Below are positions 60-20,810 of a stretch of DNA of 22,249 nucleotides, piece after piece. Each line of letters starts with the position of its first letter. The first letter of the stretch is position 1. Position numbers and translations under genes: made by a program. The DNA is from a virus. The notes below the pieces were generated by a model. That model was not told the origin of the DNA, searched no databases, and was given only the letters and a program-made list of their open reading frames with translations. The stretch spans positions 1 through 22,249 of the IMG/VR virus record IMGVR_UViG_3300046505_000106; one strand, given 5' to 3'.

Positions 60-242
60 TTACTTTTTACTTTCGTGCTCCGGAAAATTTCCTAAAGTAG
101 TTATCTTTTTAACCAACACCCCAAAAAACCTGATACTTTTTGTCTCCGATACTTTACTATAAAACGGTCTTCCAGCTACACCAGTATCTTGGAGTATCTT
201 CTCAATTACAATACTTACTATAGGATGATTCTTTAAAGCCAT
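60..242 (-). CDS. Small hypothetical protein, 60 aa
   Basis: I do not recognise this 60-residue protein. It is basic, has no predicted membrane segment and contains a GVLVKKITTLGNFPEHESKK-like C-terminus. The case for a real gene is its position: its ATG (242-240) overlaps the TAA stop of the preceding 319-aa structural gene as TAATG, an arrangement repeated elsewhere in this window. It is the last gene before the terminator-like hairpin at the left edge. A minor virion or late accessory role is possible only by position. Confidence 0.55.
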   Translation of the reverse strand: MALKNHPIVSIVIEKILQDTGVAGRPFYSKVSETKSIRFFGVLVKKITTLGNFPEHESKK

Positions 243-1201
243 TACTGAATATGATTTTGAGAAGCAGCATCCACTATAATTCTACCGGCATCTGCTGTTA
301 CAACTGTTCCGGCCAAATTAGTAGTTACATTTGCTATCTTAGCTTGTGGAAAGAAAGCTCCCTTAGCTTTTGCACTAGTAGTATCACTTGCTTTAAAAGT
401 AAGAACACCAGAAGCTGCAGTAACAACGAGACCTATTGCAAGATATGCGGCAGCCCAAGCCGTTACAAAATCTGCCGCTGTTTGAGTAAGAGTACTATTC
501 CATGTGGCGAGTTTTGTAAGGGGTCCAACAGCACTATCTGTTACACCATTAACTGTTGTACCACCAGCTGTAATATTAGCCGTTCCACTAGATCCACTAA
601 GAGTGATCCTATCTTCTCTCGGAAACATCCAGATATTACAAGTACCCGTTACGGTATCAAGAGCTGTAGAAGTTTGTACGTTTTCTGTTCCACCCGGAAA
701 ATAATAAGCCGTAGAATCAGTTGGGAAAGTGGTTGTATAGGCCCCAGATGGTAAAAATTCAAGACGAATCCTATCACCTTCACGCATATTCTTTGGTCTT
801 TTAACAGCAATATGCTGATCAAATTTTACCTGCCATGTTTTAGCTTTAGCAAGATCAGGCTCAAATACTCCTGTAAGAGCACCCGAAAGAGTATCAATAG
901 TAGGAGCAGTAACATTGATTCTGTTGACTGTATCCCAGCCCCATGCAGGAACTACTGTAATAACAGCAGCGGCAGAACTTACCTTATAGCCGGCGGCAAG
1001 ATAATAAGCATAATTATTAGTAACCCATGTAGCACAGTCAGTTGTAAGGCTGTTTGTATAGGTTAAAATAGTCTTGTTTTTAATGCCATTGACATAAATA
1101 TCAATAGTACCGCTTCCACCGGAGATGGTTAAAACACTTCCATAAACAGTCACCTGACAGGTGGCTCTTGCAGGAAAATTAGCTAAATCAAAATACTTCA
1201 T
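242..1201 (-). CDS. Virion structural protein with two copies of a Gly/Thr-rich repeat domain
   Basis: A 319-residue protein rich in Gly, Thr, Ala and Val with almost no charged clusters, typical of beta-rich phage surface or fibre proteins. Two copies of a roughly 90-residue domain are visible, at about residues 22-112 and 198-303. Each opens with an ITLSGSSGTANI-type strand, has a middle AA.FV.A.AAAYLAIGLVVTAASGVLTF helix-strand section, and ends in T.NLAGTVV. The first half is a paralogue of the neighbouring 251-aa protein: both begin MKY-D-NF and share GWDT-NRIN and KA-W-V. The second copy seems to be an insertion relative to that protein. Head decoration, head fibre or tail appendage are all possible. 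No enzymatic motif is seen. Confidence 0.75.
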   Translation of the reverse strand: MKYFDLANFPARATCQVTVYGSVLTISGGSGTIDIYVNGIKNKTILTYTNSLTTDCATWVTNNYAYYLAAGYKVSSAAAVITVVPAWGWDTVNRINVTAPTIDTLSGALTGVFEPDLAKAKTWQVKFDQHIAVKRPKNMREGDRIRLEFLPSGAYTTTFPTDSTAYYFPGGTENVQTSTALDTVTGTCNIWMFPREDRITLSGSSGTANITAGGTTVNGVTDSAVGPLTKLATWNSTLTQTAADFVTAWAAAYLAIGLVVTAASGVLTFKASDTTSAKAKGAFFPQAKIANVTTNLAGTVVTADAGRIIVDAASQNHIQ

Positions 1202-1244
1202 TTGGTTATACTGTATTAAATTATTAATAAAAAAGAATTAAAAA

Positions 1245-1871
1245 CTATACCCCATAAATCTTTATCAAAAACTTACCTGCAGCATATGCACCAGCTGTAC
1301 CAGCAGCACCACCGGTTAAGTATAAATAGTAGTTAGCAGTAGGTAAACCGGTTGCAACCTTAGTCTGACCAAGGGTCCATGCTCCACCAGACGTAAGCAA
1401 TGCCGCATAATTTGCTAAACCAGATATAGCACCATCAAATACACCCGTGGTTACAGAAGCCTGATATAAATCAATATCAGCAACCCCGGTTGTAGGTACC
1501 TCTAAGCAAGTCATTGTTATTGCTACAACAGCACCATTAAGAGCAGCTGTTATTTGTCCAATAACAGCACTACCACCAGCACCTTCTCCAATAATATCCA
1601 AATCTGTAGTTGAAGAAGATACAGTTGCGGTTTTTAAATCCACATATATTTCTTCCACAAACATTCCTGAAGAACCTCTTTTACCATAGGGAACATATTT
1701 AACACCACCAGCAACATCAAACCCCACCCCGGGAGCAGTTACTGGTAAATCAAATAAATCTGATACTAATACATAATTTACAGTAGAATCCGCAGCCTTT
1801 TGGATGAGGAGTTTATCTGTTTGAGCTACGATACCGTTGCTGCTAAAATCCGAAGAAAACTTTTTTGACAT
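1245..1871 (-). CDS. Glycine/alanine-rich virion structural protein
   Basis: A 208-residue, beta-rich protein with low charge, an N-terminal polar segment and a Gly/Ala-rich C-terminus (TGGAAGTAGAYAAGKFLIKI). Proteins with this composition and a GK-[FL]-I-K/E-[IL] ending are common as minor structural proteins of environmental phages, but I cannot name a family. It lies between two paralogous repeat-domain proteins, so a place on the virion surface or fibre is inferred. The ATG at 1871 is preceded by a CATAAT block. No signal peptide or membrane segment is seen. Confidence 0.7.
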   Translation of the reverse strand: MSKKFSSDFSSNGIVAQTDKLLIQKAADSTVNYVLVSDLFDLPVTAPGVGFDVAGGVKYVPYGKRGSSGMFVEEIYVDLKTATVSSSTTDLDIIGEGAGGSAVIGQITAALNGAVVAITMTCLEVPTTGVADIDLYQASVTTGVFDGAISGLANYAALLTSGGAWTLGQTKVATGLPTANYYLYLTGGAAGTAGAYAAGKFLIKIYGV

Positions 1872-1888
1872 GACGTTATTATGTTAAA

Positions 1889-2644
1889 TTAATATATATA
1901 AACATTTTCTGAAGTTTGTATTTGTACACCGTCTTCATTTGTTATTGGTATTCCTGTTGCATCTCCAAGATCATAAAAAATCTGACCCACATTACTTGTC
2001 ATAAGACTACCAGCATACTGACACATCAATTTCCCTGCGGCTTGAACAAGTGTACGTCCGGACATAGAAATCGCACCAGCAACATATAATGAATCGATTA
2101 ATATTGGAGAAGTACTAACGTCAAACGTAACTATACTTGTATCATTAATATACACCGAAATATCTGTGGTAACACTAGTTGAAGTAGTTGATATCAACCC
2201 AATTTTAATTTGATCACCGTCTTTCATCCCAACTGGTGCAGCAATAGTAACACTAGCCGTGGTAAGAATAACTTCCCAGATCTTTGCTTTAGATCCATCT
2301 AAAGTAAGAGTACCTGTATAAGTACCTGAAAGATCCCCGGTAAGGTTTGCTATTGTAGTGTTTATTCTATTGGTAGTATCCCAACCGTGTGCCGGATTAA
2401 CTGTAATAACCCCAGAAGCCGCTGATACTAAAAAACCCCTTAATTTATAAAAGGTATGATTCGCAAGAACCCAAGCCAAAGCGGCTGCAGCAAGAGTACT
2501 TGAAACTGTAAGACCAGTCGTGTTCTTGGTCCCATTAATTGTGATATCCGCTGTACCGGAACTCCCGGTAAGCGTGATTATATTCGCATATAAGGTCAAC
2601 CTCTGGACCATCTTAGGCGAAAAATTAGGATCTTGATATTTCAT
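1889..2644 (-). CDS. Virion structural protein with one Gly/Thr-rich repeat domain
   Basis: A 251-residue protein with one copy of the repeat domain at about residues 22-112 (IITLTGSSGTADITINGTK, then LVSAASGVITV, GWDTTNRIN and LTGDLSGTYT). From residue 1 it aligns with the 319-aa protein two genes downstream; the two are paralogues around the glycine-rich 208-aa gene. A second region (MKDGDQIKIGL) matches NMREGDRIRLEF in that protein. It is the first gene after a 159-bp gap that holds a promoter candidate, and its ATG is preceded by ACAGCATAAT. A virion surface role is inferred. Confidence 0.75.
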   Translation of the reverse strand: MKYQDPNFSPKMVQRLTLYANIITLTGSSGTADITINGTKNTTGLTVSSTLAAAALAWVLANHTFYKLRGFLVSAASGVITVNPAHGWDTTNRINTTIANLTGDLSGTYTGTLTLDGSKAKIWEVILTTASVTIAAPVGMKDGDQIKIGLISTTSTSVTTDISVYINDTSIVTFDVSTSPILIDSLYVAGAISMSGRTLVQAAGKLMCQYAGSLMTSNVGQIFYDLGDATGIPITNEDGVQIQTSENVYIY

Positions 2645-2664
2645 TATTATGCTGTTTTAATTTA

Positions 2665-2702
2665 TAAAGATATAAAATATTATTGATTAATCTATTAAAA
2701 AA
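2665..2702 (-). promoter_or_regulatory. Candidate promoter for the three-gene structural cluster
   Basis: Read on the minus strand, TTTTTTAA (2702-2695), 22 bases, then TATCTTTA (2672-2665). The second box is one mismatch from the Bacteroidota -7 consensus TAnnTTTG, and the layout resembles the other candidate promoters in this window. The start codon at 2644 is about 20 bases downstream. The region is very AT-rich, so chance similarity is possible. Confidence 0.4.
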
Positions 2703-2726
2703 CCATTGTTATAGTGTTTTATTAAA

Positions 2727-2807
2727 TCATTGTTTAATACTATTGTTTAGCTGCCCATATGCCAGACTCCCCCACAATAAAACAGCAATTATTAATAACT
2801 TTCTCAT
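2727..2807 (-). CDS. 26-residue signal-peptide-like microprotein
   Basis: A very short gene that begins MRKLLIIAVLLWGSLAYG and ends QLNNSIKQ. It has the form of a signal peptide: a basic start (Arg2, Lys3), a hydrophobic core (Leu4-Leu11) and small residues before a possible cleavage site near Ala16-Gly18, with an eight-residue polar tail. Its ATG (2807-2805) overlaps the TGA of the upstream holin-like gene as ATGA, the same 4-base coupling used by other gene pairs here. No cysteine is present, so it is not an outer-spanin lipoprotein as it stands. It may be a lysis accessory peptide, a single-span membrane peptide or the remnant of a longer gene. Confidence 0.55.
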   Translation of the reverse strand: MRKLLIIAVLLWGSLAYGQLNNSIKQ

Positions 2808-3106
2808 GGTTTAATTTCATTATTATTTGCAGCAATCGTTGCAATAGTCTCATCCTTCTTTATTTCAAGATCTTCCTTTACCTGCTTACCTTCTTCTTTT
2901 TTCTGAACAAATAGAAATAACATAGCAGAACCGGCTATAGTTAAAAATGTGCTACCAGCCGCTGCTGCTGTCACTATAATAGAAGTATCCCCCCTAAGCA
3001 ATATAACCTGCTCAGACATAGCTAAAGCAGCAACTATTACTATATCAGCAATCAATCTACTGTTAGACTGATTACCATCAGCTCCTTGTAAAAACCCGGC
3101 GTTCAT
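2804..3106 (-). CDS. Holin-like small membrane protein, 100 aa
   Basis: Two hydrophobic segments are visible, about residues 18-37 (LIADIVIVAALA) and 42-68 (IIVTAAAAGSTFLTIAGSAM), followed by a highly charged tail rich in Lys and Glu (KKEEGKQVKEDLEIKKDE). Small size, two membrane spans and a charged C-terminus fit a class II holin, but holins are too diverse to assign by sequence alone. It overlaps the preceding small membrane-protein gene by 4 bases (ATGA) and the following microprotein gene in the same way, supporting a co-translated membrane or lysis cassette. No endolysin gene is present within the window. Confidence 0.65.
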   Translation of the reverse strand: MNAGFLQGADGNQSNSRLIADIVIVAALAMSEQVILLRGDTSIIVTAAAAGSTFLTIAGSAMLFLFVQKKEEGKQVKEDLEIKKDETIATIAANNNEIKP

Positions 3107-3300
3107 AATTTCCTAAGTTGATACTCTCTAACAGCCGAAATCCCGGCATACAAAACCAACACCAGACCAAAAAATATATGCCCGGCAAATAGTTTAAATC
3201 CCCCTACAACCGCAACTATGATCTGAGCGTTATATGGAAAGGCAGTAAACTTAACTACTGCTGCTAATCCAATCTTTAGATACTCAAGTAATTTTTTCAT
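3103..3300 (-). CDS. Small two-span membrane protein, holin-like
   Basis: About 65 residues, mostly hydrophobic, with probable membrane segments around QIIVAVVGGFKLFAG and FFGLVLVLYAGISAV, a basic N-terminus (MKKLLEYLKIG) and a basic tail (REYQLRKL). The frame can be extended to a TTG at 3312, but the ATG at 3300 is preferred because it follows the stop of the upstream coiled-coil gene by four bases and starts with a typical MKKLL sequence. It overlaps the next gene by ATGA. A holin or antiholin role is plausible from size, topology and neighbours, not from a recognised family motif. Confidence 0.65.
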   Translation of the reverse strand: MKKLLEYLKIGLAAVVKFTAFPYNAQIIVAVVGGFKLFAGHIFFGLVLVLYAGISAVREYQLRKL

Positions 3301-3304
3301 ATTG

Positions 3305-3595
3305 TTAAGCAATTAATTTTTCCATCTGTGTTTCAAGACACTTAATCCTAACCTCACGCTCCTCAAGAATCTTAATTCTTTTCTCGTGCTCGGCCTGAGT
3401 ATTCTCAATCTCAGCAAGTCTGGCCTCAATGCTGGTAAGAAGCTTGAACATTTTTTCAAACTCCTCATCGTATACATTGTCCTGAAGCGATAACAATCTT
3501 CCTATTGCCTGAAGATCATTACTGTTTAAAACCATACCCTCTCTAGTCTTCTGACTAATCGGTACATTATCGTAACGCGTTGAACTTTTTTTCAT
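3305..3595 (-). CDS. Small coiled-coil protein, 96 aa
   Basis: The C-terminal half (about residues 45-96) is a long amphipathic helix with heptad spacing of Leu, Ile and Met (MFKLLTSIEARLAEIENTQ and onwards through RIKILEEREVRIKCLETQM), indicating a coiled coil. The N-terminus is polar. No membrane segment or enzyme motif is seen. It sits between a single-span protein and two holin-like proteins, so it may be a soluble partner in the same cassette or a small virion adaptor. The ATG at 3595 is preceded by CAACATAAT, a block recurring before other starts here. Confidence 0.6.
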   Translation of the reverse strand: MKKSSTRYDNVPISQKTREGMVLNSNDLQAIGRLLSLQDNVYDEEFEKMFKLLTSIEARLAEIENTQAEHEKRIKILEEREVRIKCLETQMEKLIA

Positions 3596-3605
3596 ATTAT
3601 GTTGA

Positions 3606-4046
3606 TTATTTAATTACTCGTTTAACAATTATTTTAAAATCCGGGTTCTTTGACTTTTCTACCGGCTGACTTATTTCAAACTGAAGACCACCCATTATAT
3701 CTACAATATCCTGTTTGGTAACAGTAGGATCTTTACTAATATGAGTAACAACATCGACAGATAGAGTCTTCACAACATTTGTTACCTTAGTCATATCTCC
3801 TCGTATACCTTTCTGATCCATCTTCACATAATATAACCTTTTCAATATTGTATCCTGCTTATTCCCATGAAGAGAATCGCTTATAACAAGCTTATCTACC
3901 TTAGAATTAATATCCGCATTTCCCCCCTTTACTCCTTGAGCATATATAACAGCACCAATGGCAAATAAAGTAGCAGCATACCCCCAGTAGGTTTTTAATC
4001 CATCTAAGAATACCTTAATGCCCGATTTCTTTATTTCTTCCCCCAT
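3606..4046 (-). CDS. Single-span membrane-anchored protein, possible inner-spanin-like
   Basis: A 146-residue protein with a short basic N-terminus and one hydrophobic segment (about residues 20-37, WGYAATLFAIGAVIYAQG), then a polar, mostly helical domain (KVDKLVISDSLHGNKQDTIL and beyond) that would face the periplasm in an N-in orientation. It ends in a basic IIVKRVIK. This topology matches phage inner spanins (Rz-like), and the neighbours are holin-like, but there is no diagnostic sequence. It may equally be an uncharacterised membrane-anchored virion or superinfection protein. No partner lipoprotein is seen. Confidence 0.6.
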   Translation of the reverse strand: MGEEIKKSGIKVFLDGLKTYWGYAATLFAIGAVIYAQGVKGGNADINSKVDKLVISDSLHGNKQDTILKRLYYVKMDQKGIRGDMTKVTNVVKTLSVDVVTHISKDPTVTKQDIVDIMGGLQFEISQPVEKSKNPDFKIIVKRVIK

Positions 4047-4174
4047 TTCAGAGTATGTTTTCCGATTGTTACTTTCTTGCTTTTTTCGTTGATATTATTT
4101 TGCTCGTTAATTTTACTGTAGTGCCAGCGAATACCGTAGCGACTAAGGAATATTAGTATTGGTCGTTTTTGCAT
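4031..4174 (-). CDS. Possible 47-residue basic protein in the gap after the fibre gene
   Basis: An open frame of 47 codons from ATG at 4174 to TAA at 4031 spans the 96-base gap between the fibre gene and the next membrane-protein gene, overlapping the fibre end by 32 bases and the next start by 16. The product is strongly basic (MQKRPILIFLSRYGIRWHYS at its start, TIGKHTLKWGKK at its end) with a short hydrophobic stretch at residues 5-10. The gene-dense context favours coding here, but there is no ribosome binding site and no recognisable family. Overlap with both neighbours lowers confidence. Confidence 0.35.
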   Translation of the reverse strand: MQKRPILIFLSRYGIRWHYSKINEQNNINEKSKKVTIGKHTLKWGKK

Positions 4175-6239
4175 AAGCAGACCCGTTTTTTTCAACTTGA
4201 ACTCTTCCAATAAAAACCGTTCCTGTTACGCCTGAATCCCTCAAAATATAAACCCTTATAGATGTGCTATTAGTTAATGTTGAAAACTCAAGAGAAAGCC
4301 TACGAACAACCTTTCCTGATGTTTTTGAATAAAAACTTGTAGTTGGTAGTATGTCAGTTGTATGAACCTGATCCCTTATACACCATTTCAAATCAGTCAT
4401 TGTTCCTCTCTTGACATCGAATGACAACCTATATACCGTACTTGGAGTAACTGTTATGGTGTCGTATAATCCATGACCAACATTCGATGTTGTAATACGA
4501 TCTAATGTCTGACTACCATCTAAGTCATATTCCAAATTAGTATCTACTGTAATATTCACCTTATTATATACTATATTATCCATTTCTTCAGAATATGTAA
4601 TTATATTCTGTGCGGGGATAATAGCCGGAATTCTGGTGTCTGGATATAATATATTAATCTTATCTGCAAACAATGTACCCGCTAATTTTGCCCCTAAAGC
4701 AGTTAAGTGCATTAAGTCCACATAATAAAGAGTGTCGGTAGAGTCATTCAAATCCAAAAGAGTATCGGTATCCAATATGTAAACATTTGAAATTAAAGAC
4801 GCATCGGTTCTTAATAACCCATTAAATATTCCTCGCTCAATCTCAAACTGAGCGCCATCACCTCCTGCTGTTGCTGGAGTCATTGTAAAAATAGCAACTT
4901 TCCATCCAGCGGCACTTCTGGCTTGAAGATAGGGTTTTAGTGCATTATAAGTTATTGTTCCTTGTCCCGCAGTCTCTCCTATATCATTAACACCTATCCA
5001 TAATACAAGCCAATTCTTATAGGTTGATGTTTCTGCTATTAAATGGGTGTCTACTGCACTCCCACGACTTACAATATCAGCAACAGTAGAACCAGATACA
5101 GATGCTGCAAAATTATTCACTACATTAGTCTTTCCAATCAAAGCATCCTCAATATATGATCCTGATGTTATAAATGAATGTCCCTCAAGAACAGTATTTA
5201 ATTTAACTCCTATTTGAAATCTTCTTATATGGTTATTGTAGTTAAAAAGATAATTATCACACGCTTCTATAACTAATTGTCTTTCAGTAGGAGTTAAATA
5301 TGTAAAAATTAAAGAGAATGGCATTATTTTGTTATTAGCCTCATTATTCCATGAGCCACAAACTCTTATATTAGTACTTGAAAGACCTGTGGAGTTTTTT
5401 GCAAAACTTAAACTTACCAAATTCTTATTAATTTCAAGCGTTCCTGCCACTTCTCTTGATAATGAAAAATACCTATTGCTTATAATAGATAAAGTCAATT
5501 GCAGTCCTCCATTCAACATGCAGGATAATGTTTCAACTAAATTTGATATAAATATTTTATCTCCCTCAGAAAGATCATCGAAATTCTCTATTATGTCAGT
5601 ACTTATTCCTGTAATAATAGTCATATTATCTTGTCCTAAAATTCCCGCTCCATTTACCGAAGAAACAAAGTTTGTTAGTATATTACTCTTAATTATGCTA
5701 TTGCCCTTAAATCCTTTGTATGGATTAAAAGCAGGTGTATTATATAGTGAGGGAGTAAATGTTCCGGGACTTTTCCAATTTATTAAACTCGATTGACTAT
5801 CAGGACAGGCAAAATTATCCAATAAAATAGCTTTATTCCAAACACCTGCTTGTTTTAGATCATATACCCATTTATTCTGAATAACCTGATCAGCAGCAGA
5901 CGGAGGAGTTGTCATTGCCGCCTTGACGGTTAGATATTCTGACGTTGTTATAACATTATTTGTCACAGGATAAGACTTGCCTTTATAAACTACATTCAAA
6001 GTATTTCCATAAACAACTGCAACACTTAAAACCAATGTATAAACCACTCCTGACCATGAACCACTAAGAACCGTAAACCCTGCAATTGTAAAATCACTCG
6101 CACTAACTGTTTTTGCAGAAGGGAATGTAATTACAACATGAGTCGGTGCTACGTCCTCCACAACTAAAGATTGTGGAGTCCAGTTACGACTTTGACTATC
6201 CCCTAAAGGACTTAACCTTGCAAGTGAACTGATTAACAT
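4143..6239 (-). CDS. Tail fibre or spike with SGNH/GDSL hydrolase domain
   Basis: A 698-residue modular protein. Residues about 24-95 look like an Ig-like/SwmB-type beta domain (PTHVVITFPSAKTVSASDF, VVYTLVLSVAVVYGNTLNVVY). Residues about 96-345 are beta-rich and resemble a lectin-type module. Residues about 348-530 form an SGNH hydrolase: Ser355 in EGHS, a candidate block II glycine near 383, Gly416-Val-Asn418-Asp in WIGVND, and Asp508 with His511 in VDLMH. These are the expected serine, glycine, asparagine and histidine of the family. The C-terminal 150 residues look like a carbohydrate-binding jelly roll. By family knowledge such fibres bind host glycans and may remove acetyl groups from surface polysaccharide. 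Substrate is unknown. It is the largest protein of the tail region and lies just after a GIY-YIG endonuclease gene. Confidence 0.8.
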   Translation of the reverse strand: MLISSLARLSPLGDSQSRNWTPQSLVVEDVAPTHVVITFPSAKTVSASDFTIAGFTVLSGSWSGVVYTLVLSVAVVYGNTLNVVYKGKSYPVTNNVITTSEYLTVKAAMTTPPSAADQVIQNKWVYDLKQAGVWNKAILLDNFACPDSQSSLINWKSPGTFTPSLYNTPAFNPYKGFKGNSIIKSNILTNFVSSVNGAGILGQDNMTIITGISTDIIENFDDLSEGDKIFISNLVETLSCMLNGGLQLTLSIISNRYFSLSREVAGTLEINKNLVSLSFAKNSTGLSSTNIRVCGSWNNEANNKIMPFSLIFTYLTPTERQLVIEACDNYLFNYNNHIRRFQIGVKLNTVLEGHSFITSGSYIEDALIGKTNVVNNFAASVSGSTVADIVSRGSAVDTHLIAETSTYKNWLVLWIGVNDIGETAGQGTITYNALKPYLQARSAAGWKVAIFTMTPATAGGDGAQFEIERGIFNGLLRTDASLISNVYILDTDTLLDLNDSTDTLYYVDLMHLTALGAKLAGTLFADKINILYPDTRIPAIIPAQNIITYSEEMDNIVYNKVNITVDTNLEYDLDGSQTLDRITTSNVGHGLYDTITVTPSTVYRLSFDVKRGTMTDLKWCIRDQVHTTDILPTTSFYSKTSGKVVRRLSLEFSTLTNSTSIRVYILRDSGVTGTVFIGRVQVEKNGSAYAKTTNTNIP

Positions 6240-6251
6240 AACTTTATACTT

Positions 6252-6800
6252 TTATGCTGATTTTCTTTGCTCATAATACTTCAATAAAGATAGCCGTTGT
6301 TTTTCTCTAGTTTCTTTTGTTATAGGATGTAATCTATTCCACTCTCTTCTTTTTTCATTTGATTCCTCTGAATGATGTTTATTAAAAAAAGAATTATTTT
6401 CTCCTATTTGAGCCATAGCTATTTTATTATTATTATGCTCTTGAGAATGTTTTAAACCTAATTTTGCTTTTCTATTATTTTGTCTACCCTCTTCAGAAAC
6501 CTTTAATCCCAAAGTACTGCCAGCAACAGGGCTTACATTAAACCAAGGATCAAGAACATCGATATAGTATTGTTCTCTCTGAATTAAATTCTCTTTTTCA
6601 CACCTCTCTAATATAATAAATACTAAATCTTCTTCACCATATTTATTAAAATGATTCTGGAGTTTAATAGAAGTATGTCTATTCTTATTTAACAAATATA
6701 TATATTCTTTCAATCGTCTACTAAGTTTAATAGCACTACCAACATAAACCCGCTCGAGTTTAGTAGTAGATTGAATCATATAAATCCCAGAAATTATCAC
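6252..6800 (-). CDS. GIY-YIG homing endonuclease with NUMOD3 motif
   Basis: A 182-residue protein. The GIY-YIG nuclease signature is clear: GIY at 5-7, YVG at 19-21, a candidate catalytic Arg at 28-29, and a glutamate in REQYYID (Glu76) at the metal-binding position. RHTSIKLQNHFNKYG is typical of the phage Seg/I-TevI-like subgroup. Residues about 98-135 (LGLKVSEEGRQNN, GLKHSQEH) resemble NUMOD3 DNA-binding motifs. The start is GTG at 6800, overlapping the TGA of the upstream structural gene as GTGA. The stop lies in TCAGCATAA, 12 bases before the fibre gene. It is a mobile, probably selfish gene inserted between two virion genes, paralogous to the one at 8432-9214. Confidence 0.88.
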   Translation of the reverse strand: MIISGIYMIQSTTKLERVYVGSAIKLSRRLKEYIYLLNKNRHTSIKLQNHFNKYGEEDLVFIILERCEKENLIQREQYYIDVLDPWFNVSPVAGSTLGLKVSEEGRQNNRKAKLGLKHSQEHNNNKIAMAQIGENNSFFNKHHSEESNEKRREWNRLHPITKETREKQRLSLLKYYEQRKSA

Positions 6801-7669
6801 TTTGTATAATTCAAATTCATTGTTCCGGATGCTATTACTATTTCAACTACGGGCCACTCAAATACCTGTACAGGATTATTTACAACTATTGTAGTACCAA
6901 GAAATTTCTTATATCCCGGCTTCACCATAGGATTTATTTTATAAATACCGCTTCCGGTTCCTCTGGCAAGATACTTATATGAAGTAATTACTGCGTCTGT
7001 AATTACATTAAATGAAGAAACCGGATGAGGAAGTTTGGTACTTGTTCTTACAATCGTTGCTGTAGTATCCCCAGAAAGCGTAGTAATAGTTGCTTCAGTT
7101 ATAGGTACTCCAACAGCAGCTGTAAATATAAGTGTCACAGAACCTGTTAAAACGATTCCTATTGCCAAATAAGCTGCAGCATTAGCAGCCACGAAAGCAG
7201 CCGAGGTTGTTCCTACGTTTGTATCCCAAGCAAAAGATTTTGATAAACCGTTTACTGTAACCATACCTTTATTGGTTCCCGTAGCTGACAAAGTAAAAGT
7301 AGCAGTATCAATCCCACCGGTTTTTGTTCTTACAATCGTTCCAGCTAAATCTGTGGTAAGATTAACTATTGAGGTTATACCATTCCGGGTAAGTCCTGTA
7401 GAAGTGAATACTATTGTAGCCCCACTGTTACTTACAATAACCCCAATTGCTGCATAAGCATCATAATTAGTTGATACAAAGTTAGCTGCAGTAACAGTTG
7501 TACTGGTAGCATAAGTAGCTACTTTTGCTAATCCATGACAAGTAATAGTAGCCGTTCCGGTAGAGCCAGAAAGAGTAATAGTATCTACATCGGTATCGAA
7601 AAATTTATACGTCCCTGCCGCAAATAAATCATTGCCGCCCTGTGCCGAAAGTTTATCAAGTGGTTCCAC
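6797..7669 (-). CDS. Virion structural protein with two tandem repeat domains
   Basis: A 290-residue beta-rich protein made largely of two tandem copies of a domain, about residues 28-114 (DTITLSGSTGTATITCHGLA to TTDLAGTIVRT) and 122-208 (ATGTNKGMVTVNGLS to GDTTATIVRTS). The same domain occurs in the structural proteins at 242-1201 and 1889-2644. The C-terminal 80 residues are different (KINPMVKPGYKKFLGTTIVV). The only usable start in the frame is GTG at 7669, since an in-frame stop lies a few codons upstream; it is preceded by ACAGCATA. It is placed between the ring-like proteins and the fibre, so a tail-tip adaptor or surface appendage is likely. Confidence 0.75.
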   Translation of the reverse strand: MEPLDKLSAQGGNDLFAAGTYKFFDTDVDTITLSGSTGTATITCHGLAKVATYATSTTVTAANFVSTNYDAYAAIGVIVSNSGATIVFTSTGLTRNGITSIVNLTTDLAGTIVRTKTGGIDTATFTLSATGTNKGMVTVNGLSKSFAWDTNVGTTSAAFVAANAAAYLAIGIVLTGSVTLIFTAAVGVPITEATITTLSGDTTATIVRTSTKLPHPVSSFNVITDAVITSYKYLARGTGSGIYKINPMVKPGYKKFLGTTIVVNNPVQVFEWPVVEIVIASGTMNLNYTK

Positions 7670-7688: not shown

Positions 7689-8432
7689 TTAATAATTCAT
7701 TTTACTATTATAGAGGATTATGTCCCTCAATTTTTTCTTATCAAGTTTAAGAAGTCTCTGCTTCGCCTCATGCCAACTGCCATTCATTCCGTATTCATCC
7801 AAGCTTCTCTGAGCATCAAGCTCAATAATCCTATATCGATTATCTCTTGATTTCAAAGACTGAGCACAGCGTACTGTTACCCAGTCTACTAATGCTTTTC
7901 TTACTACTCTCGGTATCATCTGAGCAAAGTCTAATGTCTGGCTTGGTATACCTGAGTAAGTAAGTCTGACATAATCAAAATTTGCACAAGCATCTGAAAG
8001 TCTAATTATTCCGTTCTGAACCGAGAAATAATATAATTGATTCTCCCAAACATTACATCTGAAGAAAGGATCTGAAGTGGAAAAGCTGTTAGTACTAGCT
8101 GTTACGCCGGTTCCTTTTCCACGGGTTTGTACATTTTTCCTCCAATAAACTGTCTCCACATATCCAACTTTATCCGGAGTACCTTTGTAAATATTAATAT
8201 CTTTGAGATTAAAACATCCAACAGGCATATCAATCATCAAATCAGCAGGTATCTTAACATCAGATGTCCGAGGAATAAAGTCAACGTCAATGGATAATTC
8301 ATCCATTGCATCATGTACTTGTGCAACATAATATCCGGGCGACAATTTTCCGTTATCCTCATCATTTAAAATCATCATAACATTACTCAAGACTTCGTTA
8401 ATAGTCATAAAATCATTAGGATTCAAATCCAT
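7689..8432 (-). CDS. Head-tail connector or ring-like virion protein, third of three
   Basis: A 247-residue protein. An N-terminal helical part (MTINEVLSNVMMILNDED, AQVHDAMDELSIDVDF) is followed by a beta-rich middle and a helical C-terminus (MIPRVVRKALVDWVTVRCAQ and LDAQRSLDEY). This order, helices around a beta core with an aromatic/basic helix near the end, resembles P22 gp4-like tail accessory or ring proteins of podoviruses, and the two genes upstream have similar lengths. The exact family cannot be proved by eye. Its ATG overlaps the TAA of the GIY-YIG gene as TAATG. Confidence 0.65.
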   Translation of the reverse strand: MDLNPNDFMTINEVLSNVMMILNDEDNGKLSPGYYVAQVHDAMDELSIDVDFIPRTSDVKIPADLMIDMPVGCFNLKDINIYKGTPDKVGYVETVYWRKNVQTRGKGTGVTASTNSFSTSDPFFRCNVWENQLYYFSVQNGIIRLSDACANFDYVRLTYSGIPSQTLDFAQMIPRVVRKALVDWVTVRCAQSLKSRDNRYRIIELDAQRSLDEYGMNGSWHEAKQRLLKLDKKKLRDIILYNSKMNY

Positions 8433-9214
8433 TATGCTATCTTTTTATTGAATTTATATTTCCAAATAAAGCCACCAGAACTATTGCTTACACCCGTTAA
8501 ACATTTTGATATAGCACTAAAATTAATGCATAACTCTCTTGATGCTGTTGATGTAAAATCCCATTCCTTTATAAAATTCATATTTAAATCATACTGGAGA
8601 ATAGGTTTTTTATGTGCTTCTACATTATTTTTTACATGTTCCACAGACTTAGGTTTTCCTGTAAGACCTAATACTATCTGTTTAACATGATCTTCTGATA
8701 AAGATACATTAATATGAGAGTCTGATATTCTCTGACGAGTTATATCAGAAAATGTTCTATCTTTAGCAGCCTCTCTCATACTGTTAAGCGTTTCTTCAGA
8801 ATATACCCCCACTCTCCCACTATTCCATGCCGGTTTGCCTCTCCTACCACTATTCTCTTTTAGTTTTCTACGGGTTTCCTCCGATTTTTCTACCCCTAAA
8901 CAACTACCAGCTACTGGAACTATATTAAAGTATGGCTTCTCAGCACCATTAAATGAATAGGGCATAAACCAACCCTGTTCCCTTGCAAGCAAATGAGTAT
9001 TATTAAAATACTCTCCAGATTCTAACATAGAAAATTCTAAATCATCTTTACCATACTTATTATAGTGATTTTGAAGCTGTAAAGAATGGTGCCTATTCTT
9101 TTTTAAATCATCAAAATGCTGCCACTTTCTACCTATTACTCCCATAGAACTCCCCACATAAATCCTTTCAGGTTTACTAATAGATTGGATCATATACACT
9201 CCGGCTATTTTCAT
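8432..9214 (-). CDS. GIY-YIG homing endonuclease with NUMOD3 and NUMOD1 motifs
   Basis: A 260-residue protein. The nuclease domain has GVY at 5-7, YVG at 19-21, an Arg at 29 and a Glu in AREQ (79), with RHHSLQLQNHYNKYG between them. The middle (about 105-195) carries NUMOD3-like segments (LGVEKSEETRRKLKE, GKPKSVEHV). Residues about 203-253 match a NUMOD1 helix-turn-helix module (PILQYDLNMNFIKEWDF, SAISKCLTG, FIWKYKF). The gene is fitted without spare bases: ATGA overlap with the upstream ring-like gene and TAATG overlap with the downstream one. Its nuclease part is clearly related to the 182-aa GIY-YIG protein but the C-terminus is longer. It is a mobile gene and not needed for virion assembly. 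Confidence 0.9.
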   Translation of the reverse strand: MKIAGVYMIQSISKPERIYVGSSMGVIGRKWQHFDDLKKNRHHSLQLQNHYNKYGKDDLEFSMLESGEYFNNTHLLAREQGWFMPYSFNGAEKPYFNIVPVAGSCLGVEKSEETRRKLKENSGRRGKPAWNSGRVGVYSEETLNSMREAAKDRTFSDITRQRISDSHINVSLSEDHVKQIVLGLTGKPKSVEHVKNNVEAHKKPILQYDLNMNFIKEWDFTSTASRELCINFSAISKCLTGVSNSSGGFIWKYKFNKKIA

Positions 9215-9921
9215 TGTTGTTGTTCGTTAGGGTCATTCACACTAGAAATTTTCTGTTGGGGGAAATTCTTATTATCAAATCCTGCACCATCATTAATTAA
9301 GTCTGATGGAAGCTGCATCACAAAACGTCCGATATCTAATAGCTGCCTTTTAAGTACTGGAAGTAGTTCCGAAGGAAAGTCAAATGGCAAATCTATATCT
9401 GTATTTGGGTCTGCTACAGCTAAGGATGTCTTAAGTCCCACCTCAATCTTAGTCAAGTTTATTTCCTCTACTCCAAGTAAATAAATATATTTATTCTGGC
9501 GATAGTAATATGGATTATTCGGAGCCGGTCTTTCTTCATCACGAAAATAAAGCCTCATTGCATTGGCTACCGAAGTCCTTGTAAAGACTACACTACCCCA
9601 CATAGGTATGCTAAGATCCATATCGGGGGGATAAGAAACATAATCGATAGCCCCATCTTTATCAAAATCATAGATAGCTGCAGGAAGTTCAAAATAGTTA
9701 CGCCCTGTAATGCTATCCACAAGTACCGGAATATTATCAAATCTAACTGTAAAAGCCCCACTATCTCTTTTCTCTATATGCTGGGCACGAAGCCTATCAG
9801 CAAAAATAGATACCCAATAAAAAATTTTAAAGGGTGTAATTTGAGCATCATCGTAGATCTGTTTGAAATCGTTAAGCAGATCATATATAACCATTCGGGT
9901 TGTGGGTCTGTAGTCGCTCAT
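9211..9921 (-). CDS. Head-tail connector or ring-like virion protein, second of three
   Basis: A 236-residue protein with an N-terminal helical section (TTRMVIYDLLNDFKQIYDDA, FKIFYWVSIFADRLRAQHIE), a beta-rich centre with YFELPAAIYDFDKDGAIDYV, and a C-terminal helix (SELLPVLKRQLLDIGRFVM). This resembles ring or tail-accessory proteins of crAss-like and related podoviruses, as judged by architecture and position after the capsid gene. The last residues are NEQQQ, encoded by a CAA run that leads into the ATGA overlap with the GIY-YIG gene. It overlaps the gene upstream by ATGA as well. Confidence 0.65.
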   Translation of the reverse strand: MSDYRPTTRMVIYDLLNDFKQIYDDAQITPFKIFYWVSIFADRLRAQHIEKRDSGAFTVRFDNIPVLVDSITGRNYFELPAAIYDFDKDGAIDYVSYPPDMDLSIPMWGSVVFTRTSVANAMRLYFRDEERPAPNNPYYYRQNKYIYLLGVEEINLTKIEVGLKTSLAVADPNTDIDLPFDFPSELLPVLKRQLLDIGRFVMQLPSDLINDGAGFDNKNFPQQKISSVNDPNEQQQ

Positions 9922-11519: not shown

Positions 11520-11999
11520 TTAATATTTGAAATTTAAATTGGCAAATTCGCCATGATGTTCTTTCGCTTTCTCGTCATAAGCTATAGCGGCTTTCTCTTC
11601 GGTGGGAAAATAACCTATAAACATACTCTTCCCGTTAACTTTAATTCTTGCCCTAATTTTACCACTAGATAAGAAACTTACTCCAAGATACTTTGATTTT
11701 CCAAAGGCCGGATAATTACTCATATTCTGTCTATGAGTGCAATTTCTCATATTCTCCTCAAGATTGTTTAAACCGTTGTGATCTCTGTGATCTACTTCTT
11801 GATCATCTGGGGTGTTCATTATCTGTCTGTGCATCCTAACTACTTTAAATTTTCCATTACCAATCGGCATACTCCTACAAGCGTAAAAATTACCATTCTT
11901 ATCATCATACTGAGCAAACCAATTATACTGACCTAGTTCTTCAAACCAATGATCGTCAACTTGGGCAAATTTACCTTGGGTTAATTCTATTAATTGCAT
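11520..11999 (-). CDS. HNH homing endonuclease with AP2 DNA-binding domain
   Basis: A 159-residue protein. The HNH nuclease core is at about residues 69-95 (VDHRDHNGLNNLEENMRNCT then HRQN), with the His in VDH, a central Asn and the Asn of RQN. Residues about 103-157 form an AP2 domain (YLGVSF, IRARIKVNGKSMFIGYF, EKAAIAYDEKA, GEFANLNF), a combination known from phage homing endonucleases. It is inserted between the capsid-gene terminator and the next virion gene, so its own transcription depends on read-through. It is paralogous to the protein at 20008-20481, sharing DHNGLNNLEEN and RNCTH, and the genes share a 33-base DNA block with one mismatch. Confidence 0.9.
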   Translation of the reverse strand: MQLIELTQGKFAQVDDHWFEELGQYNWFAQYDDKNGNFYACRSMPIGNGKFKVVRMHRQIMNTPDDQEVDHRDHNGLNNLEENMRNCTHRQNMSNYPAFGKSKYLGVSFLSSGKIRARIKVNGKSMFIGYFPTEEKAAIAYDEKAKEHHGEFANLNFKY

Positions 12000-17724: not shown

Positions 17725-20018
17725 TATGGATTACTTAAATTATCAAAATTCTGTAATGCTGGTAATTCTCCATCAGCATATGTCTCGTATATAGGAACCT
17801 TTACTGGTTGCCTGACCACCGTGTAATCCGGAAGCCTGACAAGTCTGTGCTTAACAGCAAACCTATTTGGTACAGCTAACTTTCTAGTCGGATACAAATG
17901 CATATGAGATTGTCTGCATATGTAGGCGTAAGTTATTGCATATAAAACGTCTGTAAAATGCATACTGACATTCATCGGCTTCCATGTTTCCTTACCGGCT
18001 TTAGTCCTATCCTGTACAAAAGTTGATAATTGAATAAATATATCATCGATGTACATACGATCATGGTAAGTCCTGATCAGCTCTGTCATGTAATCTATAA
18101 TAGCATCCGACCTGCTTCCTTTATTATCAATTCCAATTAGCCTAGTTCCCCCCGCTACTTTTGGAGGAAGCTGAGAAGTAAATACCAAAGATGAGAAAAA
18201 TCCTTTTAGTTCTTTATAGTCAGTATAATTAGTTCCAATGTTGGCTTCAACCAATTCTTTTATACCCATATTTATTCCCGGAGCTGTATTATAATAAAGC
18301 CCTAAAAGCACACTCTGAAGAAAACAATACTTATGGTCATGTTGTTTTCTAAAATTTAAAATAGCCGGAATTGTTTTTTCATACTCGTCCCAGATTGCAC
18401 TGGCAAATTTTGAATGACCTGATTCCACAGCTATCGGGTCCGTACCCTGATAATATCTATTCTCCCAACCGTCTTCGGGTTTTCTGAATATACGTACTGA
18501 AGCTTTTTTTAAATCATCCGAATCATCTAAAGCAATAAATCTGGCTCCGATTAATTTATATGGGAGATCATTCTCCTGTGGCATTGGATACATCTCATCA
18601 AATATTGGCTCAAAATAACCATACACCGGCTGCTGTTTTGGGGGAAGAGCTCTGCACCTATCTATACCACCCTCTATTATCTCTCTGGAAACCAGAGTAC
18701 TAGCGGTGGTAAGAAACATATCCTTGAAAGTTGAAGGATAATGCATATGAAACTGAGTCTTCGAAGTCTCAAGATCTATATCCTCTTTCATAGCTCTGGC
18801 ACCATAGTACCAAGCTTTTTCCTTCTCATATTCAATCTTATCAAAACGACAGTGCCAGCTGAAAAATAGTGGAACGAAACCATTATCATATTGCTTGGAT
18901 TCCCAAAGCCCTAAGATCCGGTACCACTCTTTTTCATATTCACCTTTACCTTTATCCATTGCCCCTCCGGTCCCCCACATGATAAGCTGACGCTTAAGTT
19001 CATAAGCACCAGTCTTAGGATTATTCCAGAACATCGTAGGACGGGCCTCATTAAGCATGGCTCCAAGTATCCCTATGTTTCCAATTTCATCTATAAGAGC
19101 CAGCTGTGGAGATCCCCCGTTGATAGCGGTCTTTTTTGGAGCTACTACATCAAGTCTACTGTTTGGATAACCCTTAGCACCTTTAGCTGCTTTATCCGAA
19201 AGCCAGAATCTAGTTCCGGAATCACTTTTTACCTTAGGCATCATCCACCGGGGGATGGCTCCAAATGGATATTTTATCTTATCGTTAAATATTTCTTCAC
19301 CGGTATCTTTATCTTCGGTAACAAATTTTATATAGTAGTTTGGCTGAAAGATCATCTTCTTTAAAGCCAGAAGACCCATGATCGAGGTCCACCCGATCTG
19401 ACGGCCTTTACCACCTATCACATTATACCCACAGTCAAACAGATAGCAAACTACAGCGTGGTGTTCCCTAGCCCGATACTTAACCAAACCTGAGGAAATA
19501 TCCCCCTCTTTTAATTCTCCATATTTGTTTACAAAGTAAAGACTGTTCTCATCACACCTGTCGTATTCGCGCTGTTTATAAGCTCTCTTGGCATCATCCG
19601 TATGGTAAGAGGTAATATTATCGTCTTCCTGTAACCACCTATAAGCCTGAACTTTATAATATTCAAATTTCTTATACCCGGATTTATTAGGAAAATAACC
19701 ATAAGTTATGCTGTTGATCCAACTAACAAAATCCTGTGTATGCTTTAATAAACTATCCGGCAACCAATCAGCTTTAGTAATATTAGCCCTTATCATGTGA
19801 TAATTGCCTGAATCATTAAAGGGGTCCATCATTTCAGACCACCTTTTCTCAATTTTAATATCTATTGAACTACCCGGCTTTCTTCCAACTGATTCTGTTT
19901 TAATAAGTCCTTCCTTAATCAGGATTTGAATTTTGTCCTCCTGAAGAACCCCCTTTTTATATTGCTGGAGTAAATAATTTAAATATCGTTGACGCGATAC
20001 AGCGGGATCAATTGCCAT
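17724..20018 (-). CDS. terL: Terminase large subunit (packaging ATPase and nuclease)
   Basis: A 764-residue TerL from the ATG at 20018. The ATPase has a deviant Walker A, KGRQIGWTS (residues 204-212), a Walker B LALIDE (306-311) and a coupling motif WGTGG (348-352). The RNase H-like nuclease has Asp527 in QGTDP, a candidate Glu591 in VEANIG and Asp690 in HFTDVLYAITYAY. TerL drives DNA into the procapsid through the portal and cuts concatemers. The frame is open 13 codons further upstream, but that extension lies inside the preceding HNH gene; the ATG chosen overlaps the HNH end by only 11 bases, starts MAIDPAVSRQ and follows AAAGAAGAATTTT. Walker A has Trp where many terminases have Lys. Confidence 0.93.
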   Translation of the reverse strand: MAIDPAVSRQRYLNYLLQQYKKGVLQEDKIQILIKEGLIKTESVGRKPGSSIDIKIEKRWSEMMDPFNDSGNYHMIRANITKADWLPDSLLKHTQDFVSWINSITYGYFPNKSGYKKFEYYKVQAYRWLQEDDNITSYHTDDAKRAYKQREYDRCDENSLYFVNKYGELKEGDISSGLVKYRAREHHAVVCYLFDCGYNVIGGKGRQIGWTSIMGLLALKKMIFQPNYYIKFVTEDKDTGEEIFNDKIKYPFGAIPRWMMPKVKSDSGTRFWLSDKAAKGAKGYPNSRLDVVAPKKTAINGGSPQLALIDEIGNIGILGAMLNEARPTMFWNNPKTGAYELKRQLIMWGTGGAMDKGKGEYEKEWYRILGLWESKQYDNGFVPLFFSWHCRFDKIEYEKEKAWYYGARAMKEDIDLETSKTQFHMHYPSTFKDMFLTTASTLVSREIIEGGIDRCRALPPKQQPVYGYFEPIFDEMYPMPQENDLPYKLIGARFIALDDSDDLKKASVRIFRKPEDGWENRYYQGTDPIAVESGHSKFASAIWDEYEKTIPAILNFRKQHDHKYCFLQSVLLGLYYNTAPGINMGIKELVEANIGTNYTDYKELKGFFSSLVFTSQLPPKVAGGTRLIGIDNKGSRSDAIIDYMTELIRTYHDRMYIDDIFIQLSTFVQDRTKAGKETWKPMNVSMHFTDVLYAITYAYICRQSHMHLYPTRKLAVPNRFAVKHRLVRLPDYTVVRQPVKVPIYETYADGELPALQNFDNLSNP

Positions 20019-20481
20019 AAAATTCTTCTTTAAAGTTAAGATTAGCAAATTCCCCAAAGTATTTTATAGCGGCTCTATCATAAGCTCTAGCAGCATCTTC
20101 CTCTGTTTTAAAGGTGCCTAAATAAATTAATTTCTTATCTACAGTAATCCTAGCTCTAATATACTTACTGCTATATCCGACTCCTAAATAAAGGACTCTA
20201 CCACTTGGTGTACGATTGGTATTGTTTTGTGTATGGGTACAATTTCTTAAATTCTCCTCAAGATTATTTAAACCGTTGTGATCCTGATGATCACATTCCA
20301 TATTTTCGGGGGTACCCATAATTAATCTGTGCATAAAAACAGATCTTCTATTACCTACATATGTTTTTGCATAATAAGTATGTTTACTCTTAACAGCATA
20401 CCATACAAAAGTATTAAGCCAATCATAGTTTTTATCATCGACTTGAACAGATTGTCCTTGAGTTAATGGTATGAGTTTCAT
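20008..20481 (-). CDS. HNH homing endonuclease with AP2 DNA-binding domain
   Basis: About 157 residues. The HNH core contains CDHQDHNGLNNLEENLRNCT followed by HTQN, and an AP2 domain follows (YLGVGYSSKYIRARITVDKK, YLGTFKTEEDAARAYDRAA, GEFANLNF). Two ATG codons are possible, 20487 and 20481. I prefer 20481: it aligns with the start of the other HNH protein (MKLIPLTQG against MQLIELTQG), overlaps the upstream stop as ATGA, and lies nine bases after an AGGAGGA. The end runs 11 bases into terL, so the insertion sits exactly at the terminase start. It is a mobile gene and paralogue of 11520-11999. Confidence 0.9.
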   Translation of the reverse strand: MKLIPLTQGQSVQVDDKNYDWLNTFVWYAVKSKHTYYAKTYVGNRRSVFMHRLIMGTPENMECDHQDHNGLNNLEENLRNCTHTQNNTNRTPSGRVLYLGVGYSSKYIRARITVDKKLIYLGTFKTEEDAARAYDRAAIKYFGEFANLNFKEEFYGN

Positions 20482-20810
20482 TGGCATATATCCTCCTGTA
20501 ATAAGCCAATACCATTGTCACAAAAATAACAACTGTTTGGTGATAGGTCAAAATACCCATCATAATGCCCTAAAGTAGTACCACGATAGATCCTGTAGAC
20601 CTCGGCCCCCTCGATAGGCAACCATTCAAAACTTATAGAGTTTTCCTTATTAGGTGCATAGACCTGAAGGATATGAGAAGGAATACTTTCTTTATCTGCT
20701 AAAGCTGTTATAACGTAGTAGTAGAGCCCTTTTCGTAACTCTCCATCTGGGTATATAACTAAAGATTCTGGTATAAGCACGGGGCTCCCGGGTGTAACTT
20801 CATTGATCAT
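20478..20810 (-). CDS. Small FN3-like protein encoded ahead of the terminase
   Basis: A 110-residue protein with the strand pattern of a fibronectin type III domain: LRKGLYYYVITALADKES, ILQVYAPNKENSISFEWLPI, EGAEVYRIYRGTTLGHYDGY. The W-x-P-x-x-GA-x-x-YRIYRGTT segment is typical of FN3 strands C to C'. There is no signal peptide and no other domain. Free-standing Ig-like or FN3 domains in phages are usually weak glycan-binding decorations of capsid or tail; presence here, as first gene of the packaging operon, is unusual. Residues SCYFCDNG contain a CxxC pair near the end. Fold is inferred from sequence pattern only. Confidence 0.7.
   Translation of the reverse strand: MINEVTPGSPVLIPESLVIYPDGELRKGLYYYVITALADKESIPSHILQVYAPNKENSISFEWLPIEGAEVYRIYRGTTLGHYDGYFDLSPNSCYFCDNGIGLLQEDICQ
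20491..20497 (-). promoter_or_regulatory. Strong Shine-Dalgarno sequence before the HNH-AP2 gene
   Basis: AGGAGGA on the minus strand, nine bases before the ATG at 20481 and three before the ATG at 20487. Starts of the virion genes nearby have A/T-rich leaders and no such element, so this site stands out and favours the 20481 start. Confidence 0.55.

Follow-up and report, generated by a model that had tools for sequence, protein, structure and literature searches.

Why does one small domain recur five times in three proteins of a single virus? We addressed this question in the complete IMG/VR virus record IMGVR_UViG_3300046505_000106, whose 22,249 bases are hereafter called the window. The three open reading frames (ORFs) concerned were confirmed on the minus strand at 242..1201 (A319), 1889..2644 (B251) and 6797..7669 (C290), and gene position together with relatives suggests that they encode virion proteins. 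The five copies belong to one sequence family, and we consider it probable that they represent a self-folding, exchangeable plug-in domain of single evolutionary origin that is carried in surface loops of virion proteins.

The domain is about 95 residues long, and a family profile hidden Markov model (HMM) detected all five copies at 62-92 bits (independent E-values, i-E, of 2e-18 to 9e-28). In A319, copy A1 spans residues 19-119 (845..1147, minus strand; i-E 5.8e-24) and is followed by a module termed M (623..844, minus strand; GDRIRLEF...FPGGTENVQT). Copy A2 of the same protein spans residues 194-306 (284..622, minus strand; i-E 9.2e-28), has an extra 13-residue loop, and is nested in what the sequence indicates to be the last hairpin of module M. 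B251 carries copy B1 at residues 18-115 (2300..2593, minus strand; i-E 3.2e-21) and an M-like C-terminal part. C290 carries two tandem copies, C1 at residues 26-118 (7316..7594, minus strand; i-E 8.7e-26) and C2 at residues 120-212 (7034..7312, minus strand; i-E 2.4e-18), and ends in about 78 C-terminal residues modelled at a predicted local distance difference test score (pLDDT) below 50.

The first-pass annotation, made from the sequence alone, had claimed one divergent domain in five copies and three proteins, and the comparisons bear this out. In pairwise alignment, nine of the ten segment pairs outscored all 500 shuffles (z 4.9-32), the exception being B1-C2, for which 19 of 500 shuffles were equally good. 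The profile found exactly five copies among the 15 window proteins tested, and all-against-all BLASTP of the 15 main window proteins linked only A319, B251 and C290 through the shared domain. A candidate sixth copy at the C-terminus of B251 was rejected, scoring 1.2 bits with 86 of 300 shuffles equally good. A319 and B251 are paralogues, alike over the N-terminal ~150-165 residues, which comprise the domain and the following module (about 40% identity, E 1e-33). Because their N-termini align throughout and A1 and B1 are sisters in the copy tree (support 99/99), the sequences indicate that A1 and B1 derive from one gene duplication rather than from separate acquisition, and that A2, C1 and C2 are separately placed copies.

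Next, the family was followed beyond the window with an alignment of three copies, then with a second alignment, which brought more members, and then by iteration. The three-copy alignment retrieved 18 loci in viral contigs and two in bacterial genomes; after iteration, 35 domain-bearing proteins with more than 35 copies were obtained. When the domain was masked, BLAST clustering divided the carriers into about 15 unrelated groups. By sequence, the family thus extends to ten or more unrelated carriers in other viruses and to two proteins of bacterial metagenome-assembled genomes (MAGs), in agreement with the earlier suggestion of a modular unit. The carriers include a probable HK97-type major capsid protein (MCP) adjoining an S49 head-maturation protease, an SU10-type adaptor, large tail-fibre-like proteins, virion proteins of very large size (2318-2497 residues), and further structural proteins. 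A 348-residue carrier has two tandem copies, copies stand in tandem in locus L024 as in C290, and copy number is one or two even among sister phages. Because 394 other sampled Bacteroidota genomes gave no domain match, the family appears on sequence grounds to be mainly viral.

The first-pass annotation could not name the family, and the domain indeed had no match among curated Pfam, NCBIfam and PHROG families. When the window proteins C290, A319 and R247 were each used alone in viral scans, no relatives came up, and tblastn against INPHARED gave no match for C290, A319, the window MCP, L186, the consensus domain or the portal, and one match, at E 0.9, for L216.

Two phage contigs with domain genes (L020:6347-7669 and L022:5240-6562) have these genes open only when UGA codes for an amino acid. 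Within their domain, UGA sits where relatives have glycine, as in code 25 (Absconditabacterota/Gracilibacteria), and under that code a 441-residue protein results, in which the domain scores 84-90 bits and lies between two copies of a related variant. Loci L030 and L027 are the two ends of IMGVR_UViG_3300031673_000015, and the 120-bp terminal repeat of this contig falls within the domain; judged from sequence, the repeat may be an assembly join on the repeated domain that fused 186-type and 216-type genes.

We then compared filled and empty insertion sites. The relative L013 (78 kb) encodes proteins of 186 and 216 residues with one domain copy each, of which the 216-residue protein is homologous to A319 and B251. 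MAFFT alignment showed that this protein and L027 share module M with A319, and that the A2 site within the final hairpin of the module is empty in both. The SU10 adaptor L086 has 112 residues where the homologue in L088 has about four. The sister record bounded by L030 and L027 encodes a 573-residue tailspike-like protein (L030:4457-6178) that opens with an uninterrupted base domain of ~88 residues; the neighbouring 186-type gene encodes the same base, with the domain inserted at residue ~46-50. In addition, both halves of the base in the L013 186-residue protein match the base of the 573-residue protein beyond all shuffles. A further case is a close homologue of the respiratory arsenate reductase ArrA (E 4e-222), encoded at L037:4006-6840 in the groundwater Bacteroidetes MAG JACPRZ010000050.1. 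Its residues 662-770 (~109) stand in for six residues of solved ArrA (chain 639-644), and the domain occupies 664-758. Since 147 other Bacteroidota genomes contained no relative of this protein at E 1e-60, the alignment to the PDB chain served to define the empty site. An empty MCP site was also sought; L093, L094 and L096 all still carry the domain, and L099 and L100 differ there but with weak flanking homology, so that no empty MCP was shown. The MCP-like proteins of L099 and L100 have a different repeated sequence (GTVVYLSPTAATGTAVEGHTYYSKD-type) at roughly the place of the domain in related MCPs, and comparison of these sequences suggests that the position is an exchangeable insert site.

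Clean insertions in unrelated carriers, including an ArrA-like reductase gene, are also what a selfish in-frame element inserting wherever a protein tolerates it would produce. However, no mobility signature was found, the inserts are not strongly atypical in G+C content, and DNA identity among the window copies is only 70-77%. The strong bias toward virion proteins and the lack of matches in the ~394 sampled Bacteroidota genomes also speak against such an element, and we regard it as the least probable of the accounts considered.

The first-pass annotation had further proposed a stacking block that lets different appendages share one attachment site. Consistent with such a docking unit, the three proteins of the same genomic slot bear the domain, as do the corresponding genes of the relative. 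Nevertheless, unrelated phages carry the domain in MCP-like, adaptor and fibre proteins, and cellular proteins have it too. Moreover, the appendages of the sister phage share the separate ~88-residue base, which is free of the domain in the tailspike-like protein and is likely the virion-docking module. The attachment role thus passes more plausibly to this base, of which C290 has no detectable trace, and docking by the domain itself is very unlikely. The flanks of C290 were tried as a version of the tailspike-type base and scored no better than shuffles.

Structure prediction was then employed to analyze the fold. An AlphaFold2 model of the relative's copy, built from a 22-copy alignment, reached pLDDT 94 with the order beta-beta-beta-alpha-beta-beta-beta-beta. 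The C290 model (core pLDDT about 75-88) showed the same order in both copies, with C2 at lower confidence, so the earlier expectation that the fold is kept across copies held for this pair. In VIA-align comparisons, the relative's copy matched the additional domains of contractile tail sheaths (A-1(L), Z 10.8; PhiTE, 10.4; Milano, 9.5; Mu, 9.3), a T7-like nozzle (10.1), flagellins (up to 8.9) and T4 gp11 (6.5). The C1 model matched residues 92-186 of the A-1(L) tail sheath at Z 11.5, with a root-mean-square deviation (rmsd) of 1.7 A over 87 residues. Because structural Z values below about 8 can reflect a chance arrangement, the argument rests on the sheath and nozzle matches, and in these models the fold is that of the sheath additional domain. 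The first-pass annotation had named Ig-like, head-fibre and tail-needle domains as folds to compare. Head-fibre and tail-needle folds were not recognised among the structural matches listed, which instead included the sheath additional domain, the nozzle, flagellin D2/D3, FliD and T4 gp11. Ig-like families (I-set, Big, fn3, PKD) were not matched in the Pfam/NCBIfam scan of 22 family members; the domain model has a central 17-residue helix, and antibody domains appeared only at low Foldseek probability. The family scans likewise gave no match to the Pfam flagellin hook IN-type model, and no sheath family was matched in Pfam/PHROGs scans of A319, B251 and C290.

The fold comparison also bears on the idea of a specific glycan-binding adhesion module, which would provide avidity for capsule, mucus or cell-surface polysaccharide and whose spread would have been selected for binding. 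The presence of the domain on many exposed structural proteins is in line with this idea, as is the resemblance of the C2 model to a domain of chitin-active GbpA (Z 7.5), and sheath additional and Ig-like phage domains have been proposed as weak carbohydrate binders (PMC9230969). However, the GbpA match is a single mid-range Z, carbohydrate-binding families gave no match at curated cut-offs, binding residues were not identified, and the insert in the ArrA-like enzyme has no obvious glycan role. We therefore consider dedicated glycan binding doubtful, yet the strongest of the rival accounts.

A structural cement or spacer, in which adjacent copies touch and so strengthen the lattice of the tail or capsid, or determine how far an appendage extends, was also weighed. 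The tandem copies in C290 and L024 could act as spacers, and sheath additional domains may contact their neighbours and thereby stabilise the tail (PMC9230969). In contrast, the carriers (MCP, adaptor, fibre, ArrA-like enzyme) vary in symmetry and position, so that a single conserved lattice contact is unlikely, and the change of copy number from one to two between sister phages does not favour it. Overall, a cement or spacer role seems rather unlikely.

We favor the exchangeable surface domain because it combines self-folding, loop insertion in unrelated proteins, and the outward position of this fold in sheaths and flagellins. In this mechanism, the domain would fold autonomously and enter otherwise different virion proteins either by in-frame insertion into exposed loops or by tandem joining, leaving the carrier's own fold undisturbed. 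In the window virus, it would decorate three accessory proteins whose genes have the ring-protein genes on one side and, as relatives suggest, the muzzle gene on the other; A319, B251 and C290 are most likely tail-associated appendages. The effect would be to shield the exterior surface or to enlarge it, so that it could make weak, multivalent contacts with polymers of the host surface or the environment. Additional domains of sheaths sit away from the tube, are supposed to be nonessential for T4 sheath formation, and may serve adhesion or stability (PMC9230969), and domain exchange among phage proteins is well documented (PMC10684548). Several points weigh against this explanation. The virion placement of A319, B251 and C290 comes from gene order; the link to sheaths is structural, profile searches against PDB sequences having returned only unrelated matches (E >= 0.02); the role in adhesion or shielding is proposed by analogy; and only 9 of 35 inner branches of the copy tree are well supported, so that the number of separate insertions is uncertain.

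A wider version of the same explanation, which we hold only tentatively, is that the domain is a universal plug-in of tailed-phage virions. In-frame insertion would have brought it into proteins of the capsid, adaptor, tail and spike base in phages of several bacterial phyla, some of which read UGA as glycine, and it would also have crossed into cellular proteins, the ArrA-like reductase among them. If true, this would imply a selectable surface property that the copies have in common whatever protein carries them.

The gene order of the window places these proteins in a podovirus-type structural region, which runs through terminase, portal (P22_portal), a scaffold-like gene, major capsid (SU10_MCP), a 277-residue protein and three adaptor/ring-like genes to the accessory genes. 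Two proteins of the virus have weak SU10_adaptor matches. One of them, encoded immediately upstream of C290 (7689..8432, minus strand; Pfam E 0.0018, below cut-off), has a homologue in L008 at 55% identity. The protein at 9211..9921 (minus strand) resembles ring 2 of crAss001 (CrAss_Ring_2, E 1.3e-5, just below cut-off; best profile match crAss001 gp40), and the best profile match of the portal is crAss001 gp20 (E 1e-7). In L013, the genes of the 186- and 216-residue proteins and then a 61-residue ORF lie between the last ring gene and a gene for a 1585-residue protein. The 1585-residue protein, directly downstream of the domain genes, has a weak best match to gp44 (muzzle; E 0.008), and a 255-residue protein of L013 matches crAss001 gp45 in profile comparison. 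Given these ring 2, portal, muzzle and gp45-type matches, the window virus is best described from its sequence as a distant crAss-like podovirus, with formal Crassvirales membership as a candidate assignment. Portal, ring 2, muzzle and cargo proteins are distantly similar to those of crAss001, and the gene order is related (PMC10172136). However, the 27 crAss001 proteins contain no counterpart of A319, B251 or C290, and the crAss001 genes for ring 1 (gp43) and muzzle (gp44) are adjacent, with no gene between them (PMC10172136).

Other genes of the window were noted in passing. A 698-residue protein in the accessory slot (4143-6239, minus strand) has a GDSL/SGNH hydrolase domain (PF13472, E 8.5e-9) and, from this match, is a candidate glycan-deacetylating appendage. 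Between it and B251 lies a cluster of small membrane/coiled-coil proteins (2804-4046, minus strand) with weak holin and XhlA-like matches, possibly a lysis cassette. Four free-standing endonuclease-like genes on the minus strand, assigned by eye from translations, form two paralogous pairs, GIY-YIG-like at 6252-6800 and 8432-9214 and HNH-like at 11520-11999 and 20008-20487; they are interspersed among the structural genes and resemble homing endonucleases.

These results provide a searchable, nameable family for a domain missed by current annotation pipelines. Matched filled and empty sites in several unrelated proteins bring the long-standing question of the function of promiscuous extra domains on phage particles within direct experimental reach, since carriers of differing symmetry can be compared with one another or stripped of the one domain they share. 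Few candidates exist for the entry of a phage structural domain into a cellular enzyme, and the ArrA-like protein is one of them. The sequence family is new and its carrier set unusually broad; the surprise is limited because both the fold and exchangeable surface domains were already known.

Among known systems, the closest in fold is the additional domain of contractile sheaths (cyanophage A-1(L) ~92-187, PhiTE ~85-181, Milano ~94-201, Mu ~100-214), which the family resembles along its entire length (Z 9-11.5, rmsd 1.7-2.6 A) and which is likewise an extra domain on a conserved core. However, the two have no sequence relation detectable in the PDB search, the carriers described here are proteins other than sheaths, and the ORFs examined in the window phage include podovirus-type ring/adaptor genes but no sheath gene. 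The D2/D3 domains of flagellin and FliD, the outer domains of filament proteins, have the same general fold (Z 5-9) but no sequence match or Pfam flagellin family match. The domain inserted in the T7-like nozzle (P-SCSP1u ~147-257; Z 10) and T4 gp11 (~82-187; Z 6.5-7.2) also have this fold, the resemblance being structural only. In behaviour, the nearest counterpart is the promiscuous Ig-like domains of tailed phages, small surface domains on many structural proteins that are swapped between phages (Fraser et al. 2006, as cited in PMC9230969 and PMC10684548). Unlike these, the domain described here lacks an Ig-like Pfam match, has a central helix, and is also carried inside an SU10 adaptor and an ArrA-like enzyme.

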